Shown here: in pieces, positions 1 to 25,996 of the stretch | How the letters are laid out: the number at the start of each line of letters is the position of its first letter | How positions within the stretch are numbered: the stretch's first letter is position 1 | NCBI RefSeq assembly: GCF_024128855.1 | Contig: NZ_JAMYDV010000007.1 | Coordinates: 62,001-126,000, forward strand | From: Rhodovulum tesquicola | GTDB lineage: Bacteria; Pseudomonadota; Alphaproteobacteria; Rhodobacterales; Rhodobacteraceae | DNA length: 64,000 bases | Direction: 5' to 3' | The notes under the pieces: model-generated | What the model saw: only the letters and a program-made list of their open reading frames with translations | The model's database searches: none | Told to the model about the DNA's origin: nothing | Program-made: the position numbers and the translations under genes

Positions 1-1290
1 GGCGGGCCGTTCCTCGTCGGGATGGTGCAGGATGAAGACATGCTCATACGCCTCTTCGTTCTTGCGGGCGGCGTATTCGGTCGTCATCCAGCCACCGAAG
101 CGGCGGGGGTCGAGCGCGCCCATGTCGATCTCGGCCTCGCCCTCGATCATCAGTTGCGCAAGGTAATGCCCCGCCCCACCGGCCGCGGTGATGCCGAAGC
201 TGAAGCCTTCGGCCAGCCACATGTTGCGCAGGCCCGGCGCGGGGCCGAGCAGCGGGTTGCCATCGGGCGTGTAACAGATCGGGCCGTTGAAATCGTCCTT
301 CAGCCCGACATGCTCGGAGGACGGGATCCGGTGGATCATCGACATGTATTCCGCCTCGATCCGTTCCAGATCCAGCGGGAACAGGTCGGCGCGGAAGCTG
401 TCGGGGCAGCCATATTCGAACCGCGCAGGCGCGCCGCGTTCATAGGGGCCGAGAATCCAGCCGCCGCGCTCCTCGCGTACATACCATTTCGCATCGGCAT
501 CGCGCAGGACCGGGTGCTGGGGATTGCCCGCCTCGCGCCAGGCGACCAGCGCGGGGTCGGGCTCGGTCACGATGAACTGATGCTCGACCGGGATCGCGGG
601 CGTCTTGATGCCCAGAAGCCGGGCGGTGCGCTGGGCATGGTTGCCGGTGGCGGTGACGACATGCTCGGCACTGATGACCGCCTGTTCGTCGGTCGCGACA
701 AGGTTCCCGCCCTTCTCGGCCATCCGCGTGACGGTGACCCGCCATTCCGAGCCGGTCCATACATAGCCGTCCACCTGCCACTTGCGCTCGATCACGGCGC
801 CGAACTGGCGCGCGCCCTTGGCCATGGCCTGCGTGACATCGGCGGGGTTGATGTAGCCGTCCGTGGGATGGAACAGCGCGCCCACCAGATCGTCCGTGCG
901 CACCAGCGGCCAGCGCGCCTTGATCTGATCGGGTGTCAGCCATTCATAGGGCACGCCGCAGGTTTCGGCGGTGGTGGCGTAGAGCATGTATTCGTCCATG
1001 CGCGCGTCGGTCTGCGCCATGCGCAAATTGCCCACCACGAAGAAACCCGGGTTCAGGCCCGTCTCGGCCTCGAGTCCCTTGTAGAACCGGATCGAGTAGT
1101 CGTGGATATGGGTCGTGGCATAGGACATGTTGAAATAGGGCAGAAGGCCCGCCGCATGCCAGGTGCTGCCCGAGGTCAACTCGTCGCGTTCCAGCAGCAT
1201 CGTGTCCCAGCCCGCCCGGGCCAGATGATAGGCGACCGAGGCACCGACGGCACCGCCGCCGACGACAAGGGCTTTGACATGGGTCGTCAT
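1..1290 (-). CDS. Dimethylglycine/sarcosine dehydrogenase-family FAD oxidoreductase (3' end outside window)
   Basis: Flavoprotein that oxidatively demethylates N-methylated glycines; the family usually carries a C-terminal GcvT-like folate domain, which would lie beyond base 1. Seen: 430 codons from an ATG at 1290, with an N-terminal Rossmann FAD motif (VVGGGAVGASVAYHL, residues 9-23) followed by GSTWHAAG, where His45 matches the histidine that covalently holds FAD in mammalian DMGDH/SarDH. GITAAGGAGHYLAQLM near residue 380 is the usual late FAD-domain loop. DMGDH cannot be separated from sarcosine dehydrogenase without the C-terminus. The 273 bases upstream hold no other gene and no convincing promoter that I could find. 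Confidence 0.85.
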   Translation of the reverse strand, partial: MTTHVKALVVGGGAVGASVAYHLARAGWDTMLLERDELTSGSTWHAAGLLPYFNMSYATTHIHDYSIRFYKGLEAETGLNPGFFVVGNLRMAQTDARMDEYMLYATTAETCGVPYEWLTPDQIKARWPLVRTDDLVGALFHPTDGYINPADVTQAMAKGARQFGAVIERKWQVDGYVWTGSEWRVTVTRMAEKGGNLVATDEQAVISAEHVVTATGNHAQRTARLLGIKTPAIPVEHQFIVTEPDPALVAWREAGNPQHPVLRDADAKWYVREERGGWILGPYERGAPARFEYGCPDSFRADLFPLDLERIEAEYMSMIHRIPSSEHVGLKDDFNGPICYTPDGNPLLGPAPGLRNMWLAEGFSFGITAAGGAGHYLAQLMIEGEAEIDMGALDPRRFGGWMTTEYAARKNEEAYEHVFILHHPDEERPA

Positions 1291-21203: not shown

Positions 21204-22235
21204 ATGACCGAGGTGGTCCACACACCGCGCGTCTTTTCCGGCATCCAGCCCTCGGGCGGGCTGACGCTGGGCAACTATCTCGGCGCGCTCAAGCGCTTCG
21301 TCGAGACCCAGGAGAGCGGCGGCATCGAGACGGTCTATTGCATCGTCGACATGCACGCGATCACCGTCTGGCAGGATCCCGGGAAGCTGACCCATGCCAC
21401 GCGCGAACTGGCCGCAGGCTTCATCGCCAGCGGGATCGACCCCGCCCGCTCGATCCTGTTCAACCAGTCGCAGGTGCCTGCCCATGCGCAACTGGCCTGG
21501 ATCTTCAACTGCGTCGCGCGGCTGGGCTGGATGCAGCGCATGACCCAGTTCAAGGACAAGGCGGGCAAGAATTCCGAGAACGTGTCGCTGGGCCTGTTCG
21601 CCTATCCCGCGCTGATGGCGGCCGATATCCTTGTCTATCACGCGACCCATGTTCCGGTGGGCGAGGACCAGAAACAGCATGTGGAACTGACCCGTGACAT
21701 CGCGGCCAAGTTCAACAACGATTTCGGGGTGGAGTTCTTCCCGCTACCCGAGCCGGTGATCGAGGGCGCGGCGACGCGGGTGATGTCCTTGCGCGACGGT
21801 ACCAAGAAGATGTCGAAATCCGACCCTTCGGACATGAGCCGCATCAACCTGACCGACGATGCCGACACGATCTCGAAAAAGATCCGCAAGGCCAAGACCG
21901 ACCCAGAGCCCCTGCCCGAGACGCTGGAGGGGCTGGAGGGTCGGCCCGAGGCGCGCAACCTCGTGAACATCTACGCCGCCCTTGCGGAACTGACGCCCGA
22001 GCAGGTGATCGCGGAACATGGCGGCCAGCAATTCGGGACGTTCAAGCCCTCGCTCGCCGATCTGGCGGTGGCGCGGCTGGCGCCGATCACTGCCGAGATG
22101 GGGCGGCTGATGCAGGACCCGGCCGAGATCGACCGCATCCTTGCCGCGGGGGCCGAGCGCGCGAACGAGATCGCCGCGCCGATCCTCAAGCGCAGCTACG
22201 AGATCGTGGGGATGGTGGGCACCGGGGCCGCCTAG
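21204..22235 (+). CDS. trpS: Tryptophanyl-tRNA synthetase
   Basis: Class I aminoacyl-tRNA synthetase charging tRNA-Trp; 343 residues. The HIGH-equivalent region is [18 protein letters not shown] (about residues 13-30) and the KMSKS motif is intact in [12 protein letters not shown] (about 198-209). [20 protein letters not shown] is the family substrate-binding block. ATG 21204 is preceded by GGAGA; the ATG at 21196 runs into a stop within four codons. An uncharacterised membrane-protein gene follows after 4 bases. Confidence 0.97.
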
Positions 22236-22239
22236 ACCC

Positions 22240-23307
22240 ATGCGGCGGGCGGCGCGGGCGATCCTGACGCTGCTGCTCGCGATTTCGCTTGCGCTTTGCC
22301 TCTGGTCGGGCTGGTCGCTGGCGACCGGCTGGCCGGGCAGCATCTTCGTTGACGCCGGGGCCGCACGGATCGAGGCGGAGTTGACCCGGCAATTGGCCCG
22401 CGCCGCCGGTGACGGGCGCATGGTCGCACGGCTCGATGCGCTTCTGGACGAGGCCCCGCGCAACTGGATGGCGATCGACGCCGTGGCCGAGGAACTGGCC
22501 CGACAGAACGTGGCGCTGCCGCCCGAACTGGAGGCCCGGCGCGCAAGCCTGCGCGCCGCCGATACCGGCACGCTGAAAATGGCGGGGGCCTGCTTGCGCT
22601 GCGCCCGCAACGTGGCCGACTGCGATTTGTCCGCCGCGCTGCTCTGCGGGGCGGCGGTCCAGTTGTCGCCCGTGGGCGACGTGCAATCCCTCGCGCGCGA
22701 GGGCCGCGCCTACCTGCGCGGGGATGCGGTTGACCGCGTCGACGTTCTGCTTTCGGCCCTTGGTCTTTCGGCGGTCGTGCTGGTGCCGCTGACCGGCGGC
22801 AGCAGCAGCGCGGTCAAGCTCGGTGCGGGCCTGGCAAAGCTTGCCCACGGCATGGGGCGCCTGCCGACAGGCCTCACGCGCACGCTTGAGGACTCCGCCA
22901 GGAACGGCCTCGACTGGCAGCGCCTGGCCGACGCGCGCAGCGTCGCGGACCTCAAGGCGCTGATGCGTCCCGAGCGGCTTCGGCCGACGATTGACCTGCT
23001 GAAGGATGGCGGGCGCATGAAGACCGCCGTCGGACTCGCTGACACGCTGCACCTGCTCGACGCAGCCGAGGATGCAGGCGACCTGCGCCGCCTTGCGAAC
23101 ATCGCCGAGGCCGCGCCCACACGCAGCATCGCCGGGCTGGAGGTGCTGGGCAAGTCGCGCCTGCTGCGCCTTGCCACGCGACTCTCGGACGCCGCGGCGC
23201 ACCTCCTGGCGGCGCTGGCCGGGTTGCTTGCATCCCTGATCGGGCTCTTCCACCAGGCACTCGTCTCTGCGGTGTTGCGTCGCCTGCGCCGCGCCGCCCA
23301 AGACTGA
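22240..23307 (+). CDS. Uncharacterised membrane-anchored protein
   Basis: 355 residues, not recognised. One N-terminal membrane anchor (ILTLLLAISLALCLWSGWSL), an Ala/Arg-rich probably periplasmic helical region with two nearby Cys in LRCARNVADCD (about residues 115-125) and another in LLCGAA, a second hydrophobic stretch (VLLSALGLSAVVLVPLTGG, about 168-186), and a third near the C-terminus (LLAALAGLLASLIGLFHQAL). It starts 4 bases after trpS and is probably co-transcribed with it. Codon use resembles its neighbours. No enzymatic motif is visible. Confidence 0.75.
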   Translation: MRRAARAILTLLLAISLALCLWSGWSLATGWPGSIFVDAGAARIEAELTRQLARAAGDGRMVARLDALLDEAPRNWMAIDAVAEELARQNVALPPELEARRASLRAADTGTLKMAGACLRCARNVADCDLSAALLCGAAVQLSPVGDVQSLAREGRAYLRGDAVDRVDVLLSALGLSAVVLVPLTGGSSSAVKLGAGLAKLAHGMGRLPTGLTRTLEDSARNGLDWQRLADARSVADLKALMRPERLRPTIDLLKDGGRMKTAVGLADTLHLLDAAEDAGDLRRLANIAEAAPTRSIAGLEVLGKSRLLRLATRLSDAAAHLLAALAGLLASLIGLFHQALVSAVLRRLRRAAQD

Positions 23308-23623
23308 TCCGCGGCGCTGCGCACGGGTCACGGTAGGTGCCCCGTGCAAGTGTGGCCGCATCCGTACCCCCGGGGCGGCCATGAAGCTGCGCTCGACTTC
23401 CTCGGGCGCCCCCGGGACCGAGACCGGGGGCCTCCGCGAAAGCAGCACCTGTGACAAGCTGGCGACGAGCGAGACGAAGGTCGCCTTCGCCGGCGCGACG
23501 GCGGCAAGCGCGCGCGGGTGCCGGCCGCCCGCGATGAACCCCGTTACCAGACCCGCCCATGTGGCCCAGCCGAACGGCCAGTTCTTGGGGATCTGCACGC
23601 CGACCAGGCGCGCTTGGCACGGC
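23308..23623. other. 316-base region without an assignable gene
   Basis: Between the convergent ends of the membrane-protein gene and the sulfotransferase-like gene. A minus-strand frame reads through here (PFGWATWAGLVTGFIAGG, then AKATFVSLVASLSQVLLSR) and looks protein-like for about 90 residues, but has no good start, ribosome site or recognised family. It may be the remnant of a gene lost next to the sulfotransferase-like insertion. No hairpin terminator was found. Confidence 0.4.
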
Positions 23624-24733
23624 TCAGTCGGGCGGCGCGTTCCGCAACCCGGCAAGCCAGTCGCGCCGGGCCCCTCGGCCAGGGAGCCAGCCGAATCCGG
23701 GAGGCGAATTGCCGACCCACGCGCTTCGACCGAGTTCGTCGATCATCCTGCGCTGTTTCTCGCGGTCGATCACTATGATGTCCGTGAGACTGGGCTGTTC
23801 GGGAACGGGCGGCCGTCGCGGCCAGGCGTCTGGGCAAGTGCCGTAGTCATAGCCTGGAAAGACGACTCCGAAAGTCTCGCGCAGCCAGAGCGGGTCATCC
23901 GAGGCGGAATCGAGCCAGACGGACAATTCGGGCCGCAGCCGCGGACGGGTCGGTCCGATCCTGTCCTCGATCTGCCGGATCGCCCGCATCAGCGCAGTCG
24001 TATCGCTGGTAAAGACATCGTCATTGTCATGGTGGAAGTCCTGCCGGTATTGCCGCACAAGGGTCATCGCCTCGCCCGAAAGCGAAATGTTCCCGTCACG
24101 CCCCTCCCTCAGGTCGCTGCGCGAGAGCCCCGACACGCTAAGATAAGCGTTCACGAAATCCGCCACGAGATCGCCCTCGCAAAGGGTCGCTCGATCATAG
24201 GTCCGTATCAGGACGTTCCCGGCCCCGAAAACGTCCATGTAAGGCTCCAGGACCTGTCTGCAATTCAGCGGACCGGGCAGCGGCACCTTCCATGATGCCT
24301 TGATCTTCTGCTGAAGCCCGGACAGGTAGTGGTCGGAAGGCCGCCGCACATAGCCCGCGATCCTGATATGGTCGGCTCCGAGCGACAGGATGTCCTCCCT
24401 CAAGGCCGCGAGGCGGTCCGTGGGCAGGACGCCGAACAGCCCTTCGTTGGAGAGAACCAGGATTTCGGGCGAGGTCTTTCGCAACTGGCGGCCAAGCCGC
24501 GCGAACCAGGCCTTGCGCTGGTCATCGTGCCGCGTCTCGTCCGGAAACCGGCTGGCGCCGTCGCGCCCCAGGCTGCCGATCCCCACGAGAAGAATCCGAT
24601 GCTTGCTCTTGTGCCGCGGGCTGCGCGGATAGGCGATTCCATGGGCGGCAAGGACACGCTCCGACCGGCGGAACGTTTTCTGAAGGATCGTCGTTCCGGT
24701 CTTGGGGGCACCAATATGAAGGATGACCTGCAT
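23624..24733 (-). CDS. Sulfotransferase-like P-loop protein
   Basis: 369 residues. The N-terminus MQVILHIGAPKTGTTILQ carries the 5'-phosphosulfate loop of PAPS-dependent sulfotransferases (K-T-G-T-T). Later RIAGYVRRPSDHYLSGLQQ matches the 3'-phosphate-binding R...S block (about residues 145-163). Acceptor unknown; such solitary genes often act on surface glycans. ATG 24733 is chosen since the motif normally begins within ten residues of the N-terminus. Codon use is slightly less GC-biased than neighbours and it is flanked by two long gene-free stretches, suggesting an inserted gene. Confidence 0.75.
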   Translation of the reverse strand: MQVILHIGAPKTGTTILQKTFRRSERVLAAHGIAYPRSPRHKSKHRILLVGIGSLGRDGASRFPDETRHDDQRKAWFARLGRQLRKTSPEILVLSNEGLFGVLPTDRLAALREDILSLGADHIRIAGYVRRPSDHYLSGLQQKIKASWKVPLPGPLNCRQVLEPYMDVFGAGNVLIRTYDRATLCEGDLVADFVNAYLSVSGLSRSDLREGRDGNISLSGEAMTLVRQYRQDFHHDNDDVFTSDTTALMRAIRQIEDRIGPTRPRLRPELSVWLDSASDDPLWLRETFGVVFPGYDYGTCPDAWPRRPPVPEQPSLTDIIVIDREKQRRMIDELGRSAWVGNSPPGFGWLPGRGARRDWLAGLRNAPPD

Positions 24734-25132
24734 GCCGCGTCGGGCTCCCTGGCTGATGGCGGTGACCCGTTCCCTCCTAAGGCTCCTGCCTCTGCGGCTC
24801 AATTCCCCAATTGCCGCGTCGTCGGCAGGCAGCCTCCGATGGTTTCACGAAACCGATTCCAATCCGACATGGTCCCGACTCATGTTCGGCGAATAACTTG
24901 CATGTCCGGTCGCGCCTGGCCGGTCCCCGGGGTCGTGATTCCCCAAGTCCGGCACAGTCGATCCGCCCTTGCCGCCCCGGGAATTCCGGCGAGCAGCCTT
25001 CGCCCGGCAGGCTCGCCCAACGCCCCCGGCCGCCCCGCCGGGGGCGTTTCCTTTGCGCTCTGGACGCTCCTGCGCCCCGGGTCTAGGGTGCGCCCGTATT
25101 CGCGAAAGGCGGGTCCACGAAAGGGGTCATAC
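24734..25132. other. 399-base region upstream of ilvE with possible leader or small RNA
   Basis: Contains a perfect palindrome GGTTTCACGAAACC (24841-24854) in a locally AT-richer stretch, then a GC-rich structured segment ending in an intrinsic terminator (listed separately) 79 bases before ilvE. No ORF longer than about 90 residues has protein-like composition. The terminator is on the plus strand, yet the nearest upstream plus-strand gene ends 1.7 kb away, so a short transcript probably starts inside this region. Confidence 0.5.
24989..25054 (+). terminator. Stem-loop plus intrinsic terminator upstream of ilvE
   Basis: A first stem GCGAGC/GCTCGC (24989-24994 with 25011-25016) is followed at once by a perfect 12-bp stem, AACGCCCCCGGC (25019-25030) with GCCGGGGGCGTT (25037-25048), a 6-base loop, and the tail TTTCCTTT (25047-25054). 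This is the clearest intrinsic terminator in the window, and it reads towards ilvE. Confidence 0.75.
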
Positions 25133-25996
25133 ATGGCGACAGGCAACAACATCCGCACCTATTTCGAGGGCAGCTGGCACCGCGCGGATCTGGCCGTGAT
25201 GCGCGCGGCCGATCATGGCAGTTGGCTGGGGACGACGGTGTTCGACGGTGCGCGCTATTTCGAGGGGATCGCCCCCGACCTGCTGGCCCATTGCGAGAGG
25301 GTGAACCGCTCGGCCGAGGCGCTGATGATCACGCCGACGGTAACTGCGCAGCAGATGCATGACCTGATCTGGGAGGGGCTGAAGACCTATCCGGAGGATG
25401 CCGCGGTCTATATCCGGCCGATGTACTGGGCGCTTGACGGCGATTTCCTGGGGATCGTGCCGAAGCCGGGCGCGACGGGCTTTGCGATCAGCCTAGAGGA
25501 GATCCCGATGGCCGCGCCGGGCAGCGCCACCACGCTGACCACGACGCGGTTCCGCCGCCCCACGCTGGACTGCGCGGTGGTCAATGCCAAGGCGGGCTGC
25601 CTTTATCCCAACAACGCCCGGATGCTGGCCGAGGCGCGTTCCAAGGGGTTCGGCAATGCGCTGGTGGCGGACGCGCTGGGCAATGTCGCCGAGACCGCCA
25701 CGGCCAACGTGTTCATCGTGAAGGATGGCGAGGTCTTTACCCCGATCCCGAACGGCACCTTCCTGGCGGGCATCACCCGGGCGCGGCATATCGCCAATCT
25801 GCGCGCGGCGGGGATCGCGGTGCATGAGACAGTTCTGGGTTTCGACGACGTGCGCGCGGCCGACGAGGTGTTCCTGTCGGGCAACATGATGAAGGTGACG
25901 CCGGTCAGGGCATTCGATGACGTGCAGTACCAGCCCGGTCCGATGACCCAGAAGGTGCGCGAGCTTTACTGGGACTGGGCGCATTCGGGCGGCTGA
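25133..25996 (+). CDS. ilvE: Branched-chain amino acid aminotransferase (class IV)
   Basis: 287-residue PLP enzyme interconverting branched-chain amino acids and their 2-oxo acids. Seen: GTTVFDGARYFEG (about residues 34-46), YIRPMYWALDG, the PLP-lysine segment NAKAGCLYPNNARML, ADALGNVAETATANVFIV and GTFLAGITRARHI, all class IV marks. ATG 25133 has AAGGGG six bases upstream. A terminator-like structure lies 79 bases before the start, so expression may depend on a promoter after it or on read-through. Confidence 0.92.
   Translation: MATGNNIRTYFEGSWHRADLAVMRAADHGSWLGTTVFDGARYFEGIAPDLLAHCERVNRSAEALMITPTVTAQQMHDLIWEGLKTYPEDAAVYIRPMYWALDGDFLGIVPKPGATGFAISLEEIPMAAPGSATTLTTTRFRRPTLDCAVVNAKAGCLYPNNARMLAEARSKGFGNALVADALGNVAETATANVFIVKDGEVFTPIPNGTFLAGITRARHIANLRAAGIAVHETVLGFDDVRAADEVFLSGNMMKVTPVRAFDDVQYQPGPMTQKVRELYWDWAHSGG

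Follow-up and report, generated by a model that had tools for sequence, protein, structure and literature searches.

The locus between positions 24734 and 25132 raises the question of what a strong hairpin with a T-rich tail does in front of ilvE. The window (the whole 64 000-nucleotide stretch of DNA analysed here) belongs to a Rhodovulum genome; among titled relatives, the ilvE sequences of R. steppense (98% identical) and R. strictum (97%) come closest. The initial annotation had offered two readings of the hairpin, an unannotated small RNA or a leader with termination control of ilvE, and had noted that no plus-strand gene ends within 1.7 kb. The latter point was borne out. The plus-strand ORF 22141–23307, the tested part of which had no NCBIfam match, ends 1.7 kb upstream of the region, and the nearer plus-strand ORFs (23381–24295 and shorter ones) are antisense to the minus-strand ORF 23624–24733 and were taken for chance frames. 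This minus-strand ORF (start MQVILHIGAPKTGTT) had no match in Pfam or NCBIfam; it may encode a sulfotransferase-like P-loop protein. In the other genus members examined, the sequence to the left of the unit is different, and the ORF may be a recent insertion. A plus-strand frame without stops (24329–25996) crosses the intergenic region and runs in frame into ilvE. It looks like a high-GC accident, because the RNA block has indels between species.

The feature is real and conserved, and the description that suits it best is that of a new candidate small RNA gene; what sets it apart is the GANTC promoter. The features on which this reading is built are listed below.

24734–25132: region studied, between the minus-strand ORF 23624–24733 and ilvE (25133–25996)
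24846–24859, plus strand: box 1, CACGAAACCGATTC, with GANTC at 24855–24859, intact in 7 of 11 Rhodovulum sequences
24868–24881, plus strand: box 2, CATGGTCCCGACTC, with GANTC at 24877–24881, positioned 22 bp after box 1; this GANTC is intact in all 11 Rhodovulum sequences
24892–24897, plus strand: −10-like hexamer AATAAC, exactly 10 nt past box 2
24904–25054, plus strand: proposed small RNA of about 150 nt, a conserved block matched by a covariance model
24906–24923, plus strand: putative helix I, CCGGTC/GGCCGG, all cells paired, with UG, UA or CG at one pair
24940–24947, plus strand: UCCCCAAG, proposed pairing region, invariant in the RNA body of 11 of 11 Rhodovulum sequences
24951–24973, plus strand: putative helix III, a hairpin with a C-rich loop, one pair GC changed to AU in 2 of 6 sequences
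24988–25017, plus strand: putative helix IV, a hairpin in the minimum-energy fold that varies between species
25019–25054, plus strand: predicted intrinsic terminator, with a 12-bp stem at 25019–25048 and the tail TCCTTT
25061–25089, plus strand: putative separate ilvE promoter, TGGACG-N17-TAGGGT, sigma-70-like, after the terminator
25133–25996, plus strand: ilvE, branched-chain amino acid aminotransferase (NF009896, E 1.7e-137; PF01063)

The perfect 12-bp stem described in the initial annotation was found as stated: AACGCCCCCGGC (25019–25030) pairs with GCCGGGGGCGTT (25037–25048) across a loop of 6, and TCCTTT follows. The hairpin said to precede it, at 24989–25016, was recovered by the minimum-energy fold with one more base on either side. 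The 12-bp stem is the sole perfect stem of at least 12 bp with a loop of 3–10 in the 64-kb window. A mean of 0.53 stems of at least 12 bp was obtained in 15 dinucleotide shuffles, and by count alone the single stem is only mildly above chance. The folding energy of 24940–25070 is weak evidence (z −1.65; 12 of 200 shuffles equally good). A generic terminator scan, which found 7 sites in 20 kb where 9.7 were expected, adds nothing for or against the hairpin. The hairpin stands above chance because it is conserved. A strict hairpin-plus-T test, applied within 200 nt of the promoter, was passed by 23 of 34 loci (two genomes counted twice and one chance match, L221, included) and by 22 of 1756 random windows.

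Upstream of the hairpin lie the two boxes, each ending in GANTC, the CcrM methylation site. No other two GANTC sites in the window have the 22-bp spacing of those at 24855 and 24877. GANTC as such is depleted in the window, with 74 sites against about 190 expected from base composition (about 40%). Box 2 was compared in 22 aligned loci, whose non-Rhodovulum rows were picked partly by the pattern GANTC-N10-NANNNT and partly by eye; in these, G was kept in 22, A in 21, T in 21 and C in 22, with A12, T6, C3 and G1 at the N. The whole GANTC was intact in 20 of the 22 (exceptions L022 and L038). NANNNT stood exactly 10 nt after box 2 in 21 (A in 22, T in 21), the exception being the window itself, where AATAAC has a C at position 6. 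The initial C and A of box 2 were each kept in 21 of the 22 loci, and the remaining columns varied more. The pattern matched 20 of the 87 ilvE loci examined; L093, where the match lies 432 bases upstream, was left out. Because the other rows were chosen partly by the pattern, only the 11 Rhodovulum rows give an unbiased count. In these, all four bases occur at the N of box 2, and NANNNT is present in 10 of the 11 sequences with the RNA. Across genera, the promoter block is the best conserved part of the unit. A consensus scan for E. coli-type sigma-70 promoters found no site in 20 kb and is uninformative here.

A sigma-70-type promoter is proposed, in which exactly 10 nt separate one GANTC from the −10 hexamer and another GANTC lies 22 bp upstream of the first. 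Transcription would begin near 24904, a start inferred from the position of the −10 hexamer, and the terminator would set its end at the 12-bp hairpin, near 25049–25054, so that the RNA would measure about 150 nt. We consider it quite likely that a discrete short transcript exists.

Along the unit, the order is two boxes, −10 hexamer, helix I or a counterpart, a G+C-rich run, TCCCCAAG, a C-rich hairpin and the terminator; in part of the 11 Rhodovulum genomes an extra hairpin stands between the last two. The TCCCCAAG stretch of the RNA body is invariant within Rhodovulum, and UCCCCAAG is also present in L041, L073 and L082. The mean unpaired probability of CCCC exceeded 0.5 in 10 of 14 folds. 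In the window the value was about 0.4; L026 and L028 gave about 0.3, and L073 a value close to zero. Without its terminator, the RNA body gave folding z values from +1.5 to −4.5 over 14 sequences and folded no better than shuffles in several species. In an alignment of six sequences, 97.1% of cells were paired, against 94.3% in shuffles (1 of 500 shuffles as high), and the covariation score was likewise reached by 1 of 500, with four pairs changed on both sides. Two of the five covariation measures were not above shuffles (pair types, 293 of 500; pairs with double changes, 71 of 500). The support that the six sequences lend to a structure is modest. ATG or GTG ORFs of at least 8 codons in 14 sequences, compared by eye, showed no corresponding reading frame. 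The window had no Rfam match at gathering score (best permissive match, E 4.3), and no match was returned by a tRNA/tmRNA search. An exact second copy of TCCCCAAGTCCGGCG occurs in the window's own genome (L114, 1501–1515) without the rest of the unit around it, and was treated as a chance occurrence.

When the ilvE upstream regions of 15 other Rhodovulum genomes were inspected, the RNA block and promoter were found at ilvE in 11 of 16 genomes, the window counted. The other five lack an intact unit: it has decayed in R. adriaticum (L022) and G010 (L025), is reduced to a weak box at most in G002, and was not seen at ilvE in G003 and G009. A covariance model (R1) built from six Rhodovulum sequences also matched 11 of the 16 at E up to 0.01, a count in which G011 figures by its terminator only and G001 is absent, with one copy in the window's own genome. 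Three weak off-locus matches within the genus (L150–L152, in G005, G006 and G014) were rejected as further copies, as by eye they were only terminator-like hairpins. Over 198 family genomes, R1 gave 12 matches in 11 genomes, all weak except in the own genome; of the ten inspected among the eleven other loci, those that could be interpreted by eye reflected a shared GC-rich terminator shape or coding sequence and are not counted. The RNA body was hardly recognizable beyond Rhodovulum and Actibacterium-type genomes, and the unit was not found in most genera searched. On a tree of 88 IlvE sequences, inspected without a statistical test, the unit is scattered. This distribution was read as that of an old element that would have been lost repeatedly; the simplest cases of the unit may have arisen by convergence.

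The promoter layout could be used as a search query by itself. The pattern TCACAAARYSGANTC-N10-NANNNT gave nine matches in 394 family genomes (393 genera), and a reversed-pattern control gave three. At eight of the nine, ilvE lies 0.2 to 0.9 kb downstream, and three of these eight loci also show trpS upstream (within 1.5 kb). L217 and L220, two of the eight, have the sequences of L066 and L087, which had helped to define the pattern; the remaining six loci are new. By eye, a hairpin and a T-rich stretch follow the pattern at each of the eight, and five pass the strict test. The ninth match (L221) lies in coding-like sequence with neither ilvE nor trpS. A model of the promoter block (R2), run over the same 394 genomes, gave 42 matches in 38 genomes with E no higher than 0.05. 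Four of them, with E below 3e-9, are sequences from which R2 was built (G000, G004, L185, which is L073, and L187, which is L082) and are therefore not independent evidence. A further match at ilvE was found in G258 (E 0.0017). The other matches were weak; ilvE was present at 3 of the 19 loci that were checked. In a search of 289 genomes from the class, R2 matched twice, in the own genome and weakly in G520, at a locus with no ilvE, trpS or glyoxalase match. Across the 16 Rhodovulum genomes, exact box copies at a place other than ilvE were limited to L161 and L176. Neither showed such a unit, and both were dismissed as further units.

The genes around the unit change. In five loci (L060, L046 and L050, from Litoreibacter, and L215 and L218) a glyoxalase-family gene lies between the unit and ilvE, in the order trpS, unit, glyoxalase gene, ilvE; in L060 this arrangement is seen at 2150–2480, and in L215 about 1.1 kb separates the unit from trpS. 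Unit and glyoxalase gene have swapped places in L073, where the gene comes first. The left neighbours at five loci tested were glyoxalase, trpS-like, DUF1489 and tRNA-synt_2 proteins, and in the window a minus-strand ORF. A promoter-like sequence close to ilvE (TGGACN-15..18-TANNNT, within 110 nt) was found in 18 of 22 loci that have the unit, in 32 of 65 that were scored as not having it immediately before ilvE and in 16 of 1740 random windows, Litoreibacter being scored among the 65 since its unit precedes the glyoxalase gene. Promoters of the form CTGGAC-N15..18-TANNNT are common before ilvE across the family, whether or not the RNA unit is present. A leader peptide shared between species and rich in Ile, Leu and Val codons was not found in 14 sequences inspected by eye.

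These observations bear on the second reading of the initial annotation, in which the hairpin belongs to an ilvE leader with regulated termination, so that transcription from upstream would pass it under some condition and add to that from the proximal promoter. The unit does lie mostly directly upstream of ilvE and in the same direction while its left neighbours change, as such a leader would. The proximal ilvE promoter, however, lies past the terminator, a glyoxalase gene intervenes in the five loci named above, the shared peptide expected of an attenuator was not seen and no Rfam family matched at gathering score. An attenuator or leader peptide of ilvE was rejected on these grounds, and we consider regulated termination improbable. 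A terminator of the upstream trpS or glyoxalase gene, the RNA being its 3′ UTR or a piece cut from it, would fit the placement directly after trpS in Litoreibacter and L218 and after glyoxalase in L073. In the window, the left ORF runs in the opposite direction, yet boxes, hexamer and RNA are kept, and across genera it is the promoter block that is best conserved; this explanation is highly improbable. The act of GANTC-controlled transcription might also matter in place of the RNA, shielding or tuning the nearby ilvE, glyoxalase or trpS region. Such a role would account for a promoter and terminator more widely conserved than the RNA body, and for the unit near ilvE in eight of the nine pattern matches. 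We hold it to be quite improbable, because the invariant TCCCCAAG and the few compensatory changes in the Rhodovulum RNA would be needless for mere transcription.

A rival on control, compatible with an RNA gene, takes the boxes as the operator of a transcription factor (a direct repeat of CACRAAACSGANTC, 22 bp apart), with GANTC incidental. Box 1 is conserved outside GANTC too, the CA that starts box 2 is kept, and a repeat spaced by two helical turns suits a dimeric regulator. Against it, the box 2 site varies freely at its middle base but hardly at all in GA and TC, and with just two exact box copies found elsewhere than at ilvE in 16 genomes, no wider regulon is visible. An operator of this kind is possible, and we doubt it. 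The unannotated small RNA of the initial annotation is the reading that is retained, on the strength of a conserved promoter-like block, an RNA with few compensatory changes, a terminator and a unit found beside different left genes. The promoter layout with its conservation, the terminator, the RNA block with its limited covariation and the apparent independence from ilvE are seen in the sequence. From them, an independent plus-strand small RNA gene, with its own sigma-70 promoter probably tuned by CcrM/GcrA, its own terminator and a probable action in trans, appears likely.

Transcription as such, its start site, methylation dependence, trans action and targets belong to the part that we infer. 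The genome encodes a CcrM-like methylase (N6_N4_Mtase and RAMA) and a GcrA-like protein (PF07750, a profile of imperfect specificity whose control also matches in Sulfolobus). As GANTC is the site of CcrM and both proteins are present, the promoter is probably tuned by GcrA through the methylation state of GANTC, and hence by passage of the replication fork. Whether methylation matters for the RNA gene is, in our estimate, evenly balanced. The C-rich stretch (UCCCCAAG in this lineage) suggests action in trans, as for CcnA, and the RNA, probably trans-acting, would pair through it with G-rich ribosome-binding sites; pairing by this stretch is put forward tentatively, with somewhat more doubt than confidence. 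In a crude pairing test (a single genome, with 40 nt before and 20 nt after each start, against a background of ORF starts that may not all belong to genes), energies with the gcrA, ccrM, ilvE and trpS starts were unremarkable, ranking 64 to 106 of 111 (gcrA, 64 and 70). These four genes are unsupported as targets.

If the candidate is real, an unannotated RNA gene occupies a conserved locus in several Rhodobacteraceae genera, and its promoter layout is enough to find it. A hairpin before ilvE is naturally taken for an amino-acid attenuator, an assumption that this case corrects, and the gene would offer a simple test of CcrM methylation control of regulatory RNAs outside Caulobacter. A more speculative and rather unlikely extension is a methylation-gated Rhodobacteraceae small RNA, in which fork passage would pulse the RNA and reset the translation of mRNAs with G-rich leaders. 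Were this true, such an RNA would tie post-transcriptional control to the replication of the chromosome in Rhodobacteraceae, a link that the literature examined, mainly titles and the starts of abstracts, does not establish.

That literature, which included few subscription journals, named no RNA at this locus. StsR, UpsM and a Paracoccus set are, like the proposed RNA, small RNAs of the same bacterial family (PMC8307010, PMC5089854, PMC5107571). StsR is ruled out as this RNA by its reported length (72 nt against about 150 nt; PMC8307010), UpsM is described as preceding the dcw cluster (PMC5089854), and the main texts of the Paracoccus set (PMC5107571) and of the Ruegeria small RNA literature do not mention ilvE. 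EcpR1 and GspR of Sinorhizobium meliloti are described as trans-acting RNAs, EcpR1 using a conserved GC-rich loop, and they resemble the RNA proposed here in being alphaproteobacterial and trans-acting (PMC4414408, PMC5928217). They differ in belonging to the Rhizobiales and in lying at another locus, EcpR1 being placed downstream of divK-pleD with the promoter ATTGAT-N17-CAATGC, and GANTC is mentioned in neither main text (PMC4414408, PMC5928217). Promoters of non-coding RNAs in Caulobacter have been scanned for CcrM sites, and some were reported (PMC5988900). Promoters of sigma-70 dependent on GcrA and CcrM, such as ctrA P1, carry GANTC beside the −35 region (PMC3667746, PMC7987155). The present putative promoter likewise has GANTC near its −35/−10 elements in a genome encoding GcrA and CcrM; its second box at 22 bp and fixed 10-nt spacing are absent from the descriptions of the ctrA P1 type (PMC3667746, PMC7987155). 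CcnA of Caulobacter crescentus is proposed to act through a looped CCCC that contacts GGGG in the leader of ctrA (PMC8959179). Unlike the RNA proposed here, CcnA is reported from the replication origin region under CtrA control (PMC8959179), the two being likened by description, and pairing with gcrA of the CcnA or EcpR1 type was unsupported here by the crude energy test. The likeness to CcnA lies in a noncoding RNA of an alphaproteobacterium with GcrA and CcrM, whose CCCC is, in the present case, mostly unpaired in the majority of the folds.
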